A program made the translations under genes and the position numbers. Below are positions 22,769 to 58,571 of a stretch of DNA of 64,000 nucleotides, piece after piece (position 1 is the first letter of the stretch; every line of letters starts with the position of its first letter). The DNA is from Massilia sp. 9096 (GTDB taxonomy: Bacteria > Pseudomonadota > Gammaproteobacteria > Burkholderiales > Burkholderiaceae_D). Below the pieces are notes generated by a model. The model had not been told where the DNA came from. It saw only the letters and a program-made list of their open reading frames with translations, and searched no databases. The stretch lies in contig NZ_JQNN01000001.1 of the NCBI RefSeq assembly GCF_000745265.1, positions 4,216,001 through 4,280,000 of the forward strand. The letters run 5' to 3'.

Positions 22769-23494
22769 TCAAACCCCACGCGGTGGCGCGGCGCACTCGA
22801 CCGGCGCTGCAGCCTTGGCCGGCCGTCCGCGCTTGGCCGGCAGGATGCGGCGCTGGGTCTTTTTCTCGAGCTCGGCCATGAAGGCACGCGAACCGACCGG
22901 CGCGCCTTTGGCCAGCGCGGTATCGATCAGCGTCAATTCCTCGCTGTTCTGCCCCTGCTCCACCAGCGCGGTGTAGGCGGCCTCGCGCTGGAACGGCGTA
23001 TTGCCGAGTCCCCAATACAGCATGTGGTCGGTGATCAGCGCATCCGAGCGCGCGCCCGCATGGTGCGCATAGCTGGACCAGCGATAGTCGAGCGCGCCGG
23101 CCGCCAGCTGCGCGCGCACCGGCGCCAGCTCGATGTGGCGGCTGCAGGCCAGCATGTAATGCACGGCATCGACGATGGCGGTGCGAAAACGTCCCTGGAA
23201 CAGCGTGCCCGAGCGTCCATGCTTGTTGTTGAACCAGGGCACGTAATAGCGGCCGACCTTTTGCATCATCAGCGCCAGGCCGTCCTCGTCGGCAGGCGTA
23301 GCCAGGACGATCACGTGACTCGGCATCAGCACGTAGGCATGCACCGCCACCTTGTAAAAGCGCGCGCACTCCTTCAGCCAGCCGAGGAAGCGCTCGTGGT
23401 CTTCTTCGTCGCGAAAGATATGCTGATTGTCGTTGCCGCGCTGGATAACCAGGTGCGGCTGGTTCGGCAGGATGAGGCGGGGCTGGCGAGCCAT
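22769..23494 (-). mobile_element. REP-associated tyrosine transposase (RAYT, TnpA_REP family), altered HUH motif
   Basis: A 241-residue Y1/HUH-family protein. The start MARQPRLILPNQPHLVIQRG (23494) matches the family; a longer frame begins upstream without support. RAYTs cleave and join single-stranded REP hairpins. Typical landmarks are AYVLMPSHVIVLATP, YYVPWFNNKHGRSGTLFQGR with the candidate catalytic Tyr, and RWSSYAHHAG. The metal-binding HUH triad, usually HVH in this position, reads HVI, so one ligand is missing. The C-terminus is Lys/Arg/Pro rich. No classical REP hairpin array was seen beside it. It is probably a domesticated or dying element. Confidence 0.85.
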
Positions 23495-33108: not shown

Positions 33109-33702
33109 ATGGCTGACAACAGGCCGCGCCGGATCGTCGTCGCCATCACCGGCGCGACCGGCGCGGTCTATGGCGTGCGGCTGCTCGAGCACCTGCGCGC
33201 CATCCCCGGCGTCGAGACCCATCTGGTGATCTCCGACGCCGCGGTCCTCACGCTGCACCAGGAAGTCGGCCTGCAACGGCGCGACGTCGAAGCCCTGGCC
33301 CACGTCGTGCACAAGAACCGGGAAATCGGCGCCTCGATCGCCAGCGGTTCGTTCCAGACCGACGGCATGGTGATCGCCCCCTGCTCCATGAAGACGCTGG
33401 CCGCCGTGGCCCATGGTCTGGCCGATAACCTGGTCGCGCGCGCCGCCGACGTGTTTCTCAAGGAACGCCGGCGCCTGATCCTGATGGTGCGCGAAACCCC
33501 TTTTAATCTGGCGCACCTGCGCAACATGACCGCCGTCACCGAGATGGGCGGTATCGTCTTCCCACCGCTGCCGAGCTTTTACAACCGTCCGGCCACCATC
33601 GAAGAGATGGTCGACCACACGGTCGCGCGCGTGCTGGACCTGCTGGGCATCGAGAACAGCGTTGCGCCGCGGTGGAGTGGCCTGAAAGCCGCCGCCACTT
33701 AA
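33109..33702 (+). CDS. ubiX: Flavin prenyltransferase
   Basis: A 197-residue enzyme that attaches a dimethylallyl group to FMN, producing the prenyl-FMN cofactor of UbiD decarboxylases used in ubiquinone synthesis and aromatic acid decarboxylation. Markers are VVAITGATGAVYGVRLLEHL, the SGSFQTDGMVIAPCSMKTLA stretch, and ERRRLILMVRETPFNLAHLR. ubiD is not in the window. The stop codon TAA overlaps the first bases of the repeat at 33701-33821. Confidence 0.96.
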   Translation: MADNRPRRIVVAITGATGAVYGVRLLEHLRAIPGVETHLVISDAAVLTLHQEVGLQRRDVEALAHVVHKNREIGASIASGSFQTDGMVIAPCSMKTLAAVAHGLADNLVARAADVFLKERRRLILMVRETPFNLAHLRNMTAVTEMGGIVFPPLPSFYNRPATIEEMVDHTVARVLDLLGIENSVAPRWSGLKAAAT

Positions 33703-33821
33703 AAAGCCTTCAAAACCTACTGCGCGTTGCATTTCGGGTTTGCGATGCTCGCCGTACCGTAAGTACGGCTGCGCTTCTCAACCCGAACTGCGGCCGCTCG
33801 CTACGGTTTTGAAGGCTTTTT
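33701..33821 (-). repeat. Co-varying-arm repeat, copy A (full-length, terminator-like)
   Basis: Outer arms AAAAAGCCTTCAAAACC (33701-33717) and GGTTTTGAAGGCTTTTT (33805-33821) form a perfect 17-bp inverted repeat. Read on the minus strand the element starts with its arm and then AACCGTAGCGAGCGG, contains an inner stem TTCGGGTT/AACCCGAA and an innermost stem GCCGTAC/GTACGGC, and ends ACGCGCAGTAGG plus the second arm. The left arm uses two bases of the ubiX stop codon, and A5/T5 ends give it the look of a bidirectional terminator. Related copies are at 41246-41313, 42027-42127 and 57193-57324. Confidence 0.9.
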
Positions 33822-41172: not shown

Positions 41173-41245
41173 TCCGCGGCCCGTCCGACGTGAAGGCAGA
41201 TTTCGCGTTAGGCTAAAGGATTCCGTTCAATTTAGTTAGCTTATC

Positions 41246-41313
41246 GGGGCCTCGAAAACCGTAGCGAGCATCGCAGACCGAAGCTGCAACGTGCAGTCGG
41301 TTTACGAGGCCCC
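41246..41313 (+). repeat. Co-varying-arm repeat, copy B (minimal form)
   Basis: Outer arms GGGGCCTCG (41246-41254) and CGAGGCCCC (41305-41313) are exact complements. Inside are AAAACC and GGTTT, the invariant AACCGTAGCGAGC, then ATCGCAGACCGAAGC and CAACGTGCAGTCGG. The inner stems of copies A and D are absent, as if lost by deletion between their two GCGAGC direct repeats. It lies 16 nt upstream of the SDR start at 41330; CAGGAG is between. Confidence 0.85.
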
Positions 41314-41329
41314 CTTTCAGGAGATTCAC

Positions 41330-41998
41330 ATGCCTACTGCTCTGATTGTCGGCGCTTCGCGCGGCATCGGTAACGAACTGGTCCGTCAATACCGCGCCGA
41401 CGGCTGGCGCGTGATCGCCACCGCGCGCAAGTCCGAAGATTGCGATGCGCTGCGCCAGCTCGGCGCCGAAGCACACCCGGTCGACGTCACCAACGCCGAG
41501 TCGATCGGCGGCCTCGGCTGGAAACTCGACGACGAGAAGATCGATGCCGCCTGGATCGTTGCCGGCGTCTACGGTCCGGACCACACGGGCTTTCCGACCG
41601 AGCAGGAGTTCGACCAGGTCATGCACACCAACGTGCTGGCCGCGATGCGCCTGCTGCCGATCGTCGCGCCGCTGGTGGCGCCCACGCGCGGCAAGGTCGC
41701 CGTGATCTCGTCGCGCATGGGCTCGATCGGCGAGCGCGACAATACGCAGGGCTCGCTGTACCGCGCCAGCAAGGCGGCGCTCAATTCCGTGCTGGCCGAT
41801 GCCGCGCTGACCTACGGTCCGCAAGGCGCCACCTGCCTGACGTTCCACCCGGGCTGGGTGCAAACCGACATGGGCGGCGCCGGCGCCACGCTCACCGTGC
41901 AGCAAAGCGTCAGCGCCTTGCGCGCCACGCTGGCCAAGGCCACGCATGCGCAGAACGGCGCATTCCTGAATTACGACGGGGCGAACATCCCCTGGTAA
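41330..41998 (+). CDS. Short-chain dehydrogenase/reductase
   Basis: A 222-residue classical SDR. The nucleotide-binding motif is ALIVGASRGIGNELVRQY at the N-terminus and the catalytic Ser-Tyr-Lys set appears in VISSRMGSIGERDN and SLYRASKAALNSV. The start MPTALIVG has CAGGAG 6 nt upstream. The substrate is unknown. Leader contains repeat copy B; it lies between the thiolase and an acyl-CoA dehydrogenase, so a role in acyl or hydroxyacyl oxidation is conceivable. Confidence 0.9.
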   Translation: MPTALIVGASRGIGNELVRQYRADGWRVIATARKSEDCDALRQLGAEAHPVDVTNAESIGGLGWKLDDEKIDAAWIVAGVYGPDHTGFPTEQEFDQVMHTNVLAAMRLLPIVAPLVAPTRGKVAVISSRMGSIGERDNTQGSLYRASKAALNSVLADAALTYGPQGATCLTFHPGWVQTDMGGAGATLTVQQSVSALRATLAKATHAQNGAFLNYDGANIPW

Positions 41999-42026
41999 TC
42001 CCTTTTCAATAATCCAACAATATAAA

Positions 42027-42127
42027 GGACCTTCCAGAACCGTAGCGAGCGGCAGCAGTTTGTCGGAGCATCGCCGGCCTCGGCGACCCCGACGAAAATG
42101 CAACGCGCAATAGGTTTTGGAAGGTCC
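42027..42127 (+). repeat. Co-varying-arm repeat, copy C (intermediate form)
   Basis: Outer arms GGACCTTCC (42027-42035) and GGAAGGTCC (42119-42127) are exact complements. Then AGAACCGTAGCGAGCGG, an inner stem TTTGTCGG/CCGACGAA with one U-G wobble, an apical stem TCGCCG/CGGCGA, and the 3' core ATGCAACGCGCAATAGG. The GCAGCYGTAC hairpin of copies A and D is missing. It ends 12 nt before the acyl-CoA dehydrogenase start; the right arm carries a purine-rich GGAAGG. Confidence 0.88.
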
Positions 42128-42139
42128 GACCGAGACACG

Positions 42140-43267
42140 ATGATATTGACCGAAGAACACCAGATGATCCGCGACGCCCTGCGCAACTTTGCGCAGGAGC
42201 GTCTGGCCCCCAACGCCGCGCGCTGGGACCGAGAGCACCATTTTCCGCAGGACGAACTGAAGGAGCTGGCGCAGCTGGGCGCCTTTGGCGTCGCGGTGCC
42301 CGAGGAATACGGTGGGGCCGGCCTCGACTACGTGGCGCTGGCGCTGGTGCTGGAAGAGATCGCGGCCGGCGACGGTGGCGTGTCCACCATCATCTCGGTC
42401 AACAATTGCCCCGTGTGCTCGATCGGCATGAGCTACGCCAACGCGGCGCAGAAGGAAAAATGGCTGCGTCCGCTGGCCCAGGGCGAGATGCTGGGCGCGT
42501 TCGCCCTCACCGAGCCGCACACCGGCAGCGATGCCGCGGCGCTGCGCACCACCGCCACCCGCGATGGCGATCATTACGTGCTCAACGGTTCCAAGCAGTT
42601 CATCACCAGCGGCAAGAACGGCGACGTCGCCATCGTCATGGCGGTCACGGATAAAACGGCCGGCAAGAAAGGCATCAGTGCGTTCTGGGTGCCGGTCGAT
42701 ACGCCCGGCTACATCGTCGCCGGCATTGAAGACAAGATGGGCCAGCATTCGTCGGACACTGCGCAGATCGTGTTCGACAATTGCCGCATGCCGGCCGAGA
42801 ATCTGATCGGCGAAGAAGGACAAGGCTACAAGATCGCGCTGTCCGGACTGGAGGGCGGACGCATCGGCATCGCCTCGCAATCGGTCGGCATGGCCCGCGC
42901 CGCGTTCGAGGCGGCACTGGCGTACTCGAAGGAGCGGACCAGCTTCGGTGCGCCGATTTTCGACCACCAGGCCGTGCAGTTCCGCCTGGCCGAGATGGCG
43001 ATGCAGATCGAGGCCGCGCGCCAGCTGATCCTGCATGCGGCCTCGATGAAGGATGCGGGATTACCCTGCCTGAAGGAAGCGGCGATGGCCAAGCTGTTCG
43101 CCTCCGAGATGGCCGAGCGCGTGGTGTCGAGCGCGATGCAGGTATTCGGCGGCTACGGCTACGTGTCCGACTTCCCGATCGAACGCATCTACCGCGACGT
43201 GCGCGTCTGCCAGATCTACGAAGGCACCAGCGACATCCAGAAGATCCTGATCGCGCGGGCGCTCTAG
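42140..43267 (+). CDS. Acyl-CoA dehydrogenase
   Basis: A 375-residue FAD-dependent dehydrogenase of short/medium-chain acyl-CoA type. It begins MILTEEHQMIRDALRNFAQE. Signatures: GAFALTEPHTGSDAAALRTT, SKQFITSGKNGDVAIVMAVT, and the C-terminal QVFGGYGYVSDFPIERIYRD then IYEGTSDIQKILIAR, whose Glu is the catalytic base in the short-chain class. The precise acyl chain is unknown. The leader is repeat copy C. Its stop overlaps or abuts the downstream GNAT gene. Confidence 0.93.
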   Translation: MILTEEHQMIRDALRNFAQERLAPNAARWDREHHFPQDELKELAQLGAFGVAVPEEYGGAGLDYVALALVLEEIAAGDGGVSTIISVNNCPVCSIGMSYANAAQKEKWLRPLAQGEMLGAFALTEPHTGSDAAALRTTATRDGDHYVLNGSKQFITSGKNGDVAIVMAVTDKTAGKKGISAFWVPVDTPGYIVAGIEDKMGQHSSDTAQIVFDNCRMPAENLIGEEGQGYKIALSGLEGGRIGIASQSVGMARAAFEAALAYSKERTSFGAPIFDHQAVQFRLAEMAMQIEAARQLILHAASMKDAGLPCLKEAAMAKLFASEMAERVVSSAMQVFGGYGYVSDFPIERIYRDVRVCQIYEGTSDIQKILIARAL

Positions 43268-57192: not shown

Positions 57193-57324
57193 GGGTCCCT
57201 GAAGAACCGTAGCGAGCGGAAGCAGTGTTGGGCGAGAAGCGCAGCTGTACGCGTAGTACAGCGAGCATCGCAGGGCTCGGCGCCCCACCGACAATCCGAC
57301 GCGCAGCAGGTTATTCAGGGATCC
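57193..57324 (+). repeat. Co-varying-arm repeat, copy D (full-length)
   Basis: Outer arms GGGTCCCTGAA (57193-57203) and TTCAGGGATCC (57314-57324) pair over 11 bp with one G-U wobble. Within: AACCGTAGCGAGCGG, stem TGTTGG/CCGACA, the apical hairpin GCTGTAC/GTACAGC, then ACGCGCAGCAGG. Compared with copy A (GCCGTAC/GTACGGC) the apical stem shows a compensatory C-G to T-A change. It ends 8 nt before the SpmAB start. Confidence 0.9.
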
Positions 57325-57332
57325 TCTCAGAC

Positions 57333-58571
57333 ATGGCTCTCAATTACATCTGGATCGGCTTCTTCCTGGTCGGTTTTATTGCGGCATTGGCCCAATGGAT
57401 CTTCCTCGGGGACACCGAGATCTTCAAGCGCATCATCGACGGCACCTTCGACTCCGCCAAGAGCGGCGTGATGGACATCGCCCTGCCGCTGGCCGGCGTG
57501 ATGACGCTGTGGCTGGGCATCATGAACATCGGCGAAAAGGCCGGCGCGATCGGCTGGCTGGCAAAAATCATCGCGCCCTTCTTTTCGCGCATTTTTCCGG
57601 ACGTGCCGAAGGACCACCCGGCCACCGGCCACATGGTGATGAATTTCTCGGCCAACCTGCTCGGCCTGGACAACGCCGCCACGCCGTTCGGCCTGAAGGC
57701 GATGGAAAGCCTGCAGACCCTGAATCCGAACAAGGACACGGCCAGCAACGCCCAGATCATGTTCCTGGTGCTGCATACGTCGGGCCTGACCCTGATCCCG
57801 CTGGCGATCATGGCCCAGCGCGCGATCCTCGGCGCCAGGGACCCGTCCGACATTTTTATCCCATGCATGATCGCGACCTACGTCGCCACGGTCGCGGGTA
57901 TCATCGCCGTGTCGATCCGCCAGCGCATCAACCTGTTCGACCGCGTCGTGCTCGGCTGGCTGGGCGGCATGACGGCGGCGATCGCCGGCGTGATCTGGTA
58001 CTTCACGCAAGTCCTGACGAAAGCGGAAATCGAAGGCGTGTCCAAGCTCGTCAGCAACCTGGTGCTGTTCTCGATCATCGTCGTGTTCATCGTCGGCGCC
58101 GTGCTCAAGAAGGTGAACGTGTACGAAACCTTCATCGAAGGCGCGAAAGGCGGCATCCAGACCTCGCTGACCATCATTCCATACCTCGTCGGCATGCTGG
58201 TGGCGATTTCCGTGATCCGCAATTCGGGCGTGCTCGGCTTCGTGGTGCATGGCATGGACTGGGTGTTCACCCAGGCCGGCCTGGACACGCGTTTTACCCC
58301 GTCGCTGCCCACTGCCCTGATGAAACCGCTGTCCGGCAGCGGTTCGAAGGCGATGATGATCGACGCCATGAAGACCTATGGCGTCGATTCCTTCGTCGGG
58401 CGCCTGGCCTGTATCTTCCAGGGCTCGGCCGACACCACCTTCTACATCGTCGCGCTGTACTTCGGCTCGGTTGGGGTGCGCAAGACGCGCTATGCGATTT
58501 CCTGCGGGCTGATCGCCGACCTGGCCGGCATCGTCGCCGCGATCGCCGTGGCCTATGTGTTTTTCGGATAA
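57333..58571 (+). CDS. Fused spore maturation-type protein SpmA-SpmB (nucleoside-recognition Gate domains)
   Basis: A 412-residue inner-membrane protein with two Gate-domain halves corresponding to SpmA (about 1-200) and SpmB (about 230-412). Examples are MNFSANLLGLDNAATPFGLK, and in the second half ALMKPLSGSGSKAMMIDAMK and GSADTTFYIVALYFGSVGVR. In Bacillus the separate SpmA and SpmB affect spore cortex and core dehydration; this organism group does not sporulate, so the job here is unknown. The gene is immediately followed by a D-Ala-D-Ala carboxypeptidase gene, echoing the B. subtilis dacB-spmA-spmB order. Confidence 0.9.
   Translation: MALNYIWIGFFLVGFIAALAQWIFLGDTEIFKRIIDGTFDSAKSGVMDIALPLAGVMTLWLGIMNIGEKAGAIGWLAKIIAPFFSRIFPDVPKDHPATGHMVMNFSANLLGLDNAATPFGLKAMESLQTLNPNKDTASNAQIMFLVLHTSGLTLIPLAIMAQRAILGARDPSDIFIPCMIATYVATVAGIIAVSIRQRINLFDRVVLGWLGGMTAAIAGVIWYFTQVLTKAEIEGVSKLVSNLVLFSIIVVFIVGAVLKKVNVYETFIEGAKGGIQTSLTIIPYLVGMLVAISVIRNSGVLGFVVHGMDWVFTQAGLDTRFTPSLPTALMKPLSGSGSKAMMIDAMKTYGVDSFVGRLACIFQGSADTTFYIVALYFGSVGVRKTRYAISCGLIADLAGIVAAIAVAYVFFG

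Follow-up and report, generated by a model that had tools for sequence, protein, structure and literature searches.

The intergenic repeat described here, found in Massilia sp. 9096 and in many of its relatives, forms a long hairpin, and it is well supported that this fold is under selection. Selection acts on the fold of one strand and does not depend on how the locus is transcribed. The explanation that we prefer, with slightly less than an even chance of being right, is a dispersed, non-autonomous, mobile or once mobile hairpin of ~119 nt that is read as one folded strand by a trans-acting protein. Covariation together with fixed loops, the one-strand bias of G.U pairs, patchy copy number, empty orthologous sites, a burst of copies in one genome (G022), the lack of target duplication with a sharp helix end, and the paired double changes at shared sites were counted for it. 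The absence of linkage to RAYT genes, the failure to see an autonomous parent, the maintenance of copies in place, the unpaired changes at shared sites, the GNRA tips and the lack of a demonstrable replication-strand bias were counted against it.

The window, a stretch of 64,000 nt of the Massilia sp. 9096 genome, contains four copies, whose boundaries were set by the covariance model (Table 1). All four contain AACCGTAGCGAGC exactly, as the sequence-only reading had stated, and the folds of the copies agree with its claim that the arms of each copy are complementary to one another. The same reading held the outer arms to be unrelated between copies. This has to be given up, because with 28 to 54 copies compared the arms are seen to be drifted forms of a single consensus, about GGGGCCTCGA...TCGAGGCCCC, and GGCACCTCGAA-like arms are common to many copies in G022. 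In genome G010 (G010:C22), the site orthologous to that of the 33702 copy is occupied by a different long hairpin with 16-bp arms, GCGTCTGACAAAGCCT / AGGCTTTGTCAGACGC (L449 ~920-1110; L258), which sits shortly 3′ of the stop codon of the same gene. A second family of hairpins may share this niche.

Table 1. Copies of the hairpin repeat and associated features in the window (window coordinates).
Feature	Position	Strand	Details
Full-length hairpin-repeat copy	33702-33820	minus	Arms AAAAGCCTTC / GAAGGCTTTT; antisense to gene 33109-33702 and abutting its stop codon; starts on the last base of the TAA
Gene, Pfam Flavoprotein	33109-33702	+	TAA at 33700-33702, abutted by the 33702-33820 copy
Internally deleted copy, 70 nt	41245-41314	+	Deletion between two GCGAGC repeats; ATG at 41330, 15 nt on
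Copy with altered core, 103 nt	42026-42128	+	ATG at 42140, 11 nt on
Copy with extra GC-rich insert in inner helix	57193-57324	+	ATG at 57333, 8 nt on
Left outer arm of the 57193-57324 copy	57193-57202	+	Partner is 57315-57324
Invariant AACCGTAGCGAGC	57205-57217	+	Spans the AACC clamp, the GUA bulge and the first GA belonging to the GA/GCA loops

The element measures ~119-120 nt, and its AACCGTAGCGAGC strand folds into one long hairpin. An outer helix of ~10 bp is free in sequence. Inward of it follow, in order, the AACC/GGTT clamp, a GUA/A bulge, two pairs, a GA/GCA loop, GCG/CGC and a small loop. Further inward lie the inner helix, which has a single mismatch of the G.A type, then the second GA/GCA loop and four pairs with an A.A mismatch, and the apical end consists of a third GA/GCA loop in reverse orientation and then the GCYGTAC tip. 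The clamp is fixed and the inner helix is variable. Exact GA/GCA is present at the three loops in 90, 83 and 73 per 100 copies. An extra 15-nt hairpin stands beside the third loop in at least 10 of 100 copies; this insert (e.g., in L051, L056 and L336) differs in presence within about half of the shared-site pairs, as if it were often gained, lost or exchanged. Short forms of 60-70 nt, such as the second copy of the window, look by eye as if the stretch between two internal repeats, GCGAGC or GCGCAG, had been deleted. Full-length copies have a loose unpaired leader 5′ of the outer helix, about AACGTATC, stronger in the own genus than elsewhere, and this leader may belong either to the element or to its target.

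The first covariance model was built from alignment A1 (28 copies), with a structure set by hand from the folds. Changes on both sides were found in 24 of 42 pairs in these 28 copies and in 27 of 42 pairs in 100 copies, while 96.1% and 96.4% of the cells, respectively, were paired. None of 500 shuffles reached the observed covariation values, and slid structures brought pairing down to 31-42%. Column pairs, ~6,600 in number, were ranked in three alignments by APC-corrected G, an R-scape-like score, and the ten top pairs were helix pairs in ten cases out of ten both in A2 and in the MAFFT realignment of the same 100 copies, and in nine out of ten in A1. G.A/A.G swaps occur at two unpaired positions (47 and 17 at one, 29 and 29 at the other, per 100 copies), the remainder being mostly G-C and A-T pairs. 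The co-varying stems noticed in the window are confirmed by the double changes and the ranking. From these stems it had been argued that an RNA fold is selected, in contrast to mobile MITEs, which keep their terminal repeats constant. Selection on the fold stands, but the contrast with mobile elements fails in view of the patchy copy number, the empty orthologous sites and the sharing of arms in G022.

Four copies had been taken as a repeat family in the window. All four exist, but far more copies are present: the model based on A1 gave 64 rows, or 63 distinct places, in the own genome at E 0.01. AACCGTAGCGAGC alone has 36 exact copies there, against none for its reversed control pattern. The repeat was detected with the covariance model in 30 of 37 genomes of the same genus, and copy number ranged from 0 (seven genomes) to the 77 rows, or 75 places, of G022. 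Across the family, the covariance model matched in 105 of 195 genomes and 32 of 44 genera at E 1e-6. A 15-mer scan of named genomes followed by the covariance model placed the repeat, among the matches listed, in Janthinobacterium, Massilia, Duganella, Telluria, Pseudoduganella, Herbaspirillum, Variovorax, Zoogloea and Azoarcus. A longer form of ~140-155 nt was present, again among the matches listed, in Thiobacillus, Curvibacter, Chromobacterium, Xanthomonas and others; the 12 long-form copies compared fold alike, with double changes in 30 of 50 predicted pairs. Nine Xanthomonas plasmid records matched the long-form query and none matched a window copy used as query, and phage records gave no match to either query. 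In the viral collection none of 43 15-mer stretches was confirmed by the covariance model. Among the papers brought up by literature searches, titles and abstracts name no such repeat.

If the repeat is mobile, then we can ask: What occupies the orthologous sites in other genomes? At the 42026 site 23 of the 24 relatives shown have only a short gap, and one, G013, has a copy, in which the changes of the left arm relative to the Massilia sp. 9096 copy are, by eye, all matched on the right arm. Flank matches between the copy sets of three genomes numbered 28, and 18 of these are shared sites with the element in one orientation. In four further flank matches the element is inverted within the same gap, which indicates that independent insertion also happens; part of the shared sites may be independent insertions too. 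Both-side changes occupy 43 of 288 arm positions at the 18 shared sites, against 14.7 expected. Of these, 31 are still paired, against a mean of 3.9 and a maximum of 11 in 2000 permutations, and 12 are unpaired; the 44 one-side changes comprise 20 that are still paired and 24 that are not. Copies common to different species stay paired while their arms drift, and their pairing equals that of the other copies (90% each). The keeping of copies in place at shared sites suggests selection beyond transposition.

The concerted arm changes at shared sites also fit an explanation with no selection at all, in which template switching by DNA polymerase corrects the arms of a palindrome. Such correction is strand-symmetric and yields Watson-Crick pairs, so that the asymmetry between G.U and A.C described below misfits it, as do the G.A/A.G swaps and the GA/GCA loops, which have stayed uncorrected; we regard it as very improbable.

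The end of the helix is sharp, and pairing stops at the given element boundaries. Direct repeats at the ends are no more frequent than in shuffled pairs (mean 3.6 vs 3.5), which gives no sign of target duplication. No autonomous parent was seen between neighbouring copies, where the listed ORFs look by eye like ordinary genes. The many G022 copies sharing arms represent a burst, which we counted towards mobility. In G022_L358 and G033_L340 a copy of the same orientation lies between two genes that by eye resemble sdhA and sdhB.

Which strand does selection read? On the AACCGTAGCGAGC strand G.U pairs outnumber A.C pairs by 198 to 46 in A2 and by 263 to 44 in A3, a ratio that may be raised somewhat since both alignments were fitted to a model of this strand. 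The excess, about 4:1, agrees with the earlier remark that the G-U wobbles favour this strand, and the ratio stays between 3.6 and 5.5 in every gene-context class. The 36 copies that have their folded strand antisense to the genes on both sides contain 44 G.U and 11 A.C, and the 45 copies sense to the left gene contain 78 and 17. The bias persists in the doubly antisense copies, so selection does not read the neighbouring mRNAs; in these 36 copies its target is neither the leader of a gene that follows nor the 3′ end of the gene that the copy abuts. With equal bias in the two groups, an RNA that would serve as leader of the next gene is not supported.

A structured RNA could also be read, transcribed from the AACCGTAGCGAGC strand by its own or pervasive promoters and bound by a protein through the repeated GA/GCA loops. 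RNAs of this kind usually tolerate G.U, swap G.A with A.G and conserve their internal loops; in 79 of 100 copies the RNA of the + strand is more stable than that of the other strand, and the shared copies are kept in place. The four-base tip loops point in the same direction, with GNRA in 21 of 72 and GNYA in one of 72, and this excess leans towards RNA; 15 further tip loops (GAAG, GAAT, GGAT) fit what we take to be a stable DNA tetraloop class. Against an RNA stand the undiminished bias in the 36 copies antisense to both neighbours and the position of Rfam sX9, which derives from a reported Xanthomonas sRNA, on the opposite strand. We consider the structured RNA unlikely, though far from negligible, and as the polymer that is read, single-stranded DNA is favoured over RNA. 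The replichores were not placeable because the GC skew of the loci is too flat, and no replication-strand bias is shown.

The position of the copies relative to genes was evaluated with a home-made codon-based gene finder. The setting before a start codon holds for three window copies, at 15, 11 and 8 nt from the ATG, but as a rule it fails: it is a minority setting, and the most frequent one has the copy antisense to a gene whose stop codon is ~0-1 nt away. An opposite-strand gene lies on the 3′ side of 130 copies (71 in G000, which is the own genome, G033 and G022, and 59 in other taxa). In 72 of them (38 and 34, respectively) the stop codon of this gene is -1 to +2 nt from the element, with the mode at +1. 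Comparable closeness to a same-strand gene on the 5′ side was seen in only 6 of 105 copies (4/62 and 2/43). A stop-like target motif was considered and rejected, as the 53 full-length copies preceding a same-strand gene are not enriched in stop-like words at the 3′ edge; the rule therefore concerns gene ends and not a short target word. The mobile hairpin gives no account of the frequent contact between its 3′ end and a stop codon, and offers no mechanism for it.

The stop-codon rule would be expected of an mRNA 3′-end element, in which the opposite strand, following the abutting stop codon, forms a protecting or processing hairpin, and sX9 would be such an RNA. The sX9 family (Rfam RF02228, 76 nt, gathering cut-off 44 bits), whose strand is taken here from Rfam, scores 45 to 95 bits in L126, L090 and L145 (Xanthomonas, Thiobacillus), where its match lies on the opposite strand and covers the 5′ half of the long form. 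Its strand is the one that a 3′-end element needs, and several sX9 genes are reported, in excerpts of PMC10924375, to be copper-induced in Xanthomonas. But the G.U bias lies on the other strand even in copies antisense to both neighbours, in which mRNA would come from the opposite strand alone (44 vs 11), and sX9 includes only half of the hairpin, so that the 3′-end element seems improbable. At only 76 nt, on the opposite strand and in the 5′ half, sX9 also has a drawn structure that is not the hairpin found here. The window has no sX9 match at the gathering threshold, and the 57193 copy scores 14.3 bits against 44. The claim that the repeat belongs to no named family thus holds for the window copies, which are far below the sX9 cut-off, and fails in part for distant relatives, in which sX9 covers half of the element on the other strand.

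The hairpin repeat resembles REPIN and REP sequences in being a dispersed intergenic hairpin of ~100 nt with strand-specific features, compensatory stem changes and long persistence; for REP/REPIN systems, strand-specific reading of bulged single-stranded DNA hairpins, compensatory changes and long persistence are described in excerpts of PMC8266576, PMC3116915 and PMC8049555. GTAG, the REPIN tetranucleotide, is found 5′, next to a bulged stem, in ~54 of 100 copies, and the other ~46 have mostly GTCG and otherwise another word. Unlike a REPIN, the repeat is not an inverted REP doublet, as the two sides of its core are not inverted copies of one REP, and it flanks no RAYT gene; a different repeat, GTAGGGTGG, does. 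Pfam PF01797 (Y1 transposase) had no match in the own genome at E 1e-5. The supposed absence of a Y1 transposase was dropped after NCBIfam NF047646 revealed a clear RAYT there (G000:C1:4394872-4395336, 149.9 bits). In the window, 23075-23479 (-) is a weak match to a REP-associated tyrosine transposase (43.6 bits, cut-off 80).

At least two RAYT family matches are present in every one of the 37 genomes of the genus, the seven that lack the repeat among them, so the presence of RAYT alone is uninformative. G055 and G056, which match the covariance model of the repeat weakly, have no RAYT match. No hairpin-repeat copy was found in 32 RAYT-centred loci, and RAYT was rejected as the cognate mobiliser for this lack of linkage; the nearest copy, common to G000 and G033, is 2.2 and 3.6 kb from their RAYT genes. 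GTAGGGTGG words number 48 in 107 kb of RAYT-centred loci vs 24 in 302 kb of control loci, and they lie beside RAYT genes of the genus in 22 of the 32 loci, a set that comprises L440-L442, L451-L472 and others. None occurs in the loci fetched from G000, G033 and G022, the genomes richest in the hairpin repeat (some G000 stretches overlap), and an inverse relation of the two repeats across genomes is possible. The hairpin repeat is REPIN-like in behaviour and by test not a REPIN.

The attC sites of integrons carry AAC/GTT triplets and are positioned after a stop codon. In the folded strand of our repeat AAC and GTT are nearly invariant, and this strand is antisense to the abutting gene. In attC one strand of an imperfect palindrome with drifting arms is used folded, and the choice of strand by features of the folded site is described in excerpts of PMC8946536. 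These likenesses would suit an integron recombination site of the attC type that stands alone. However, the repeat occurs as single dispersed copies with a long and fixed sequence core, no cassette arrays were seen, and no integron integrase scored above the cut-off in the 23 same-genus genomes searched, which leaves this the most improbable reading of all.

ERIC-like and other MITE repeats are likewise short dispersed intergenic palindromes. MITEs have constant terminal repeats and target duplications. Unlike them, the hairpin repeat has arms that drift and covary (constant within a G022 subgroup) and no target duplication.

In the mobile hairpin that we prefer, the trans-acting protein would read the folded single strand by its loops, and this strand would most likely be single-stranded DNA exposed during replication. 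The stems would need only to pair. The protein would copy or insert the hairpin without target duplication, and the copy populations might then persist long, as those of REPINs do. A bolder version is a new class of mobile single-strand hairpins in this bacterial family and beyond, in which an unknown protein reads the three identical GA/GCA loops, the hairpin settles with its 3′ end against the stop codon of an opposite-strand gene, the copies are then kept there by selection, and sX9 is a by-product. We offer this version tentatively, as possible but on the unlikely side.

The comparison of G.U and A.C counts between sense and antisense copies is a simple test of one-strand against local-message selection and is usable for other repeats. 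The stop-codon rule provides a testable link between the repeat and gene ends, and the dozens of natural variants per genome are a resource for finding the loop-reading protein. A review places sX9 among the 20 most prevalent bacterial sRNAs (excerpt of PMC9029176). Should sX9 prove to be one half of a mobile hairpin, seen on the opposite strand, many annotations and expression claims would need re-examination.
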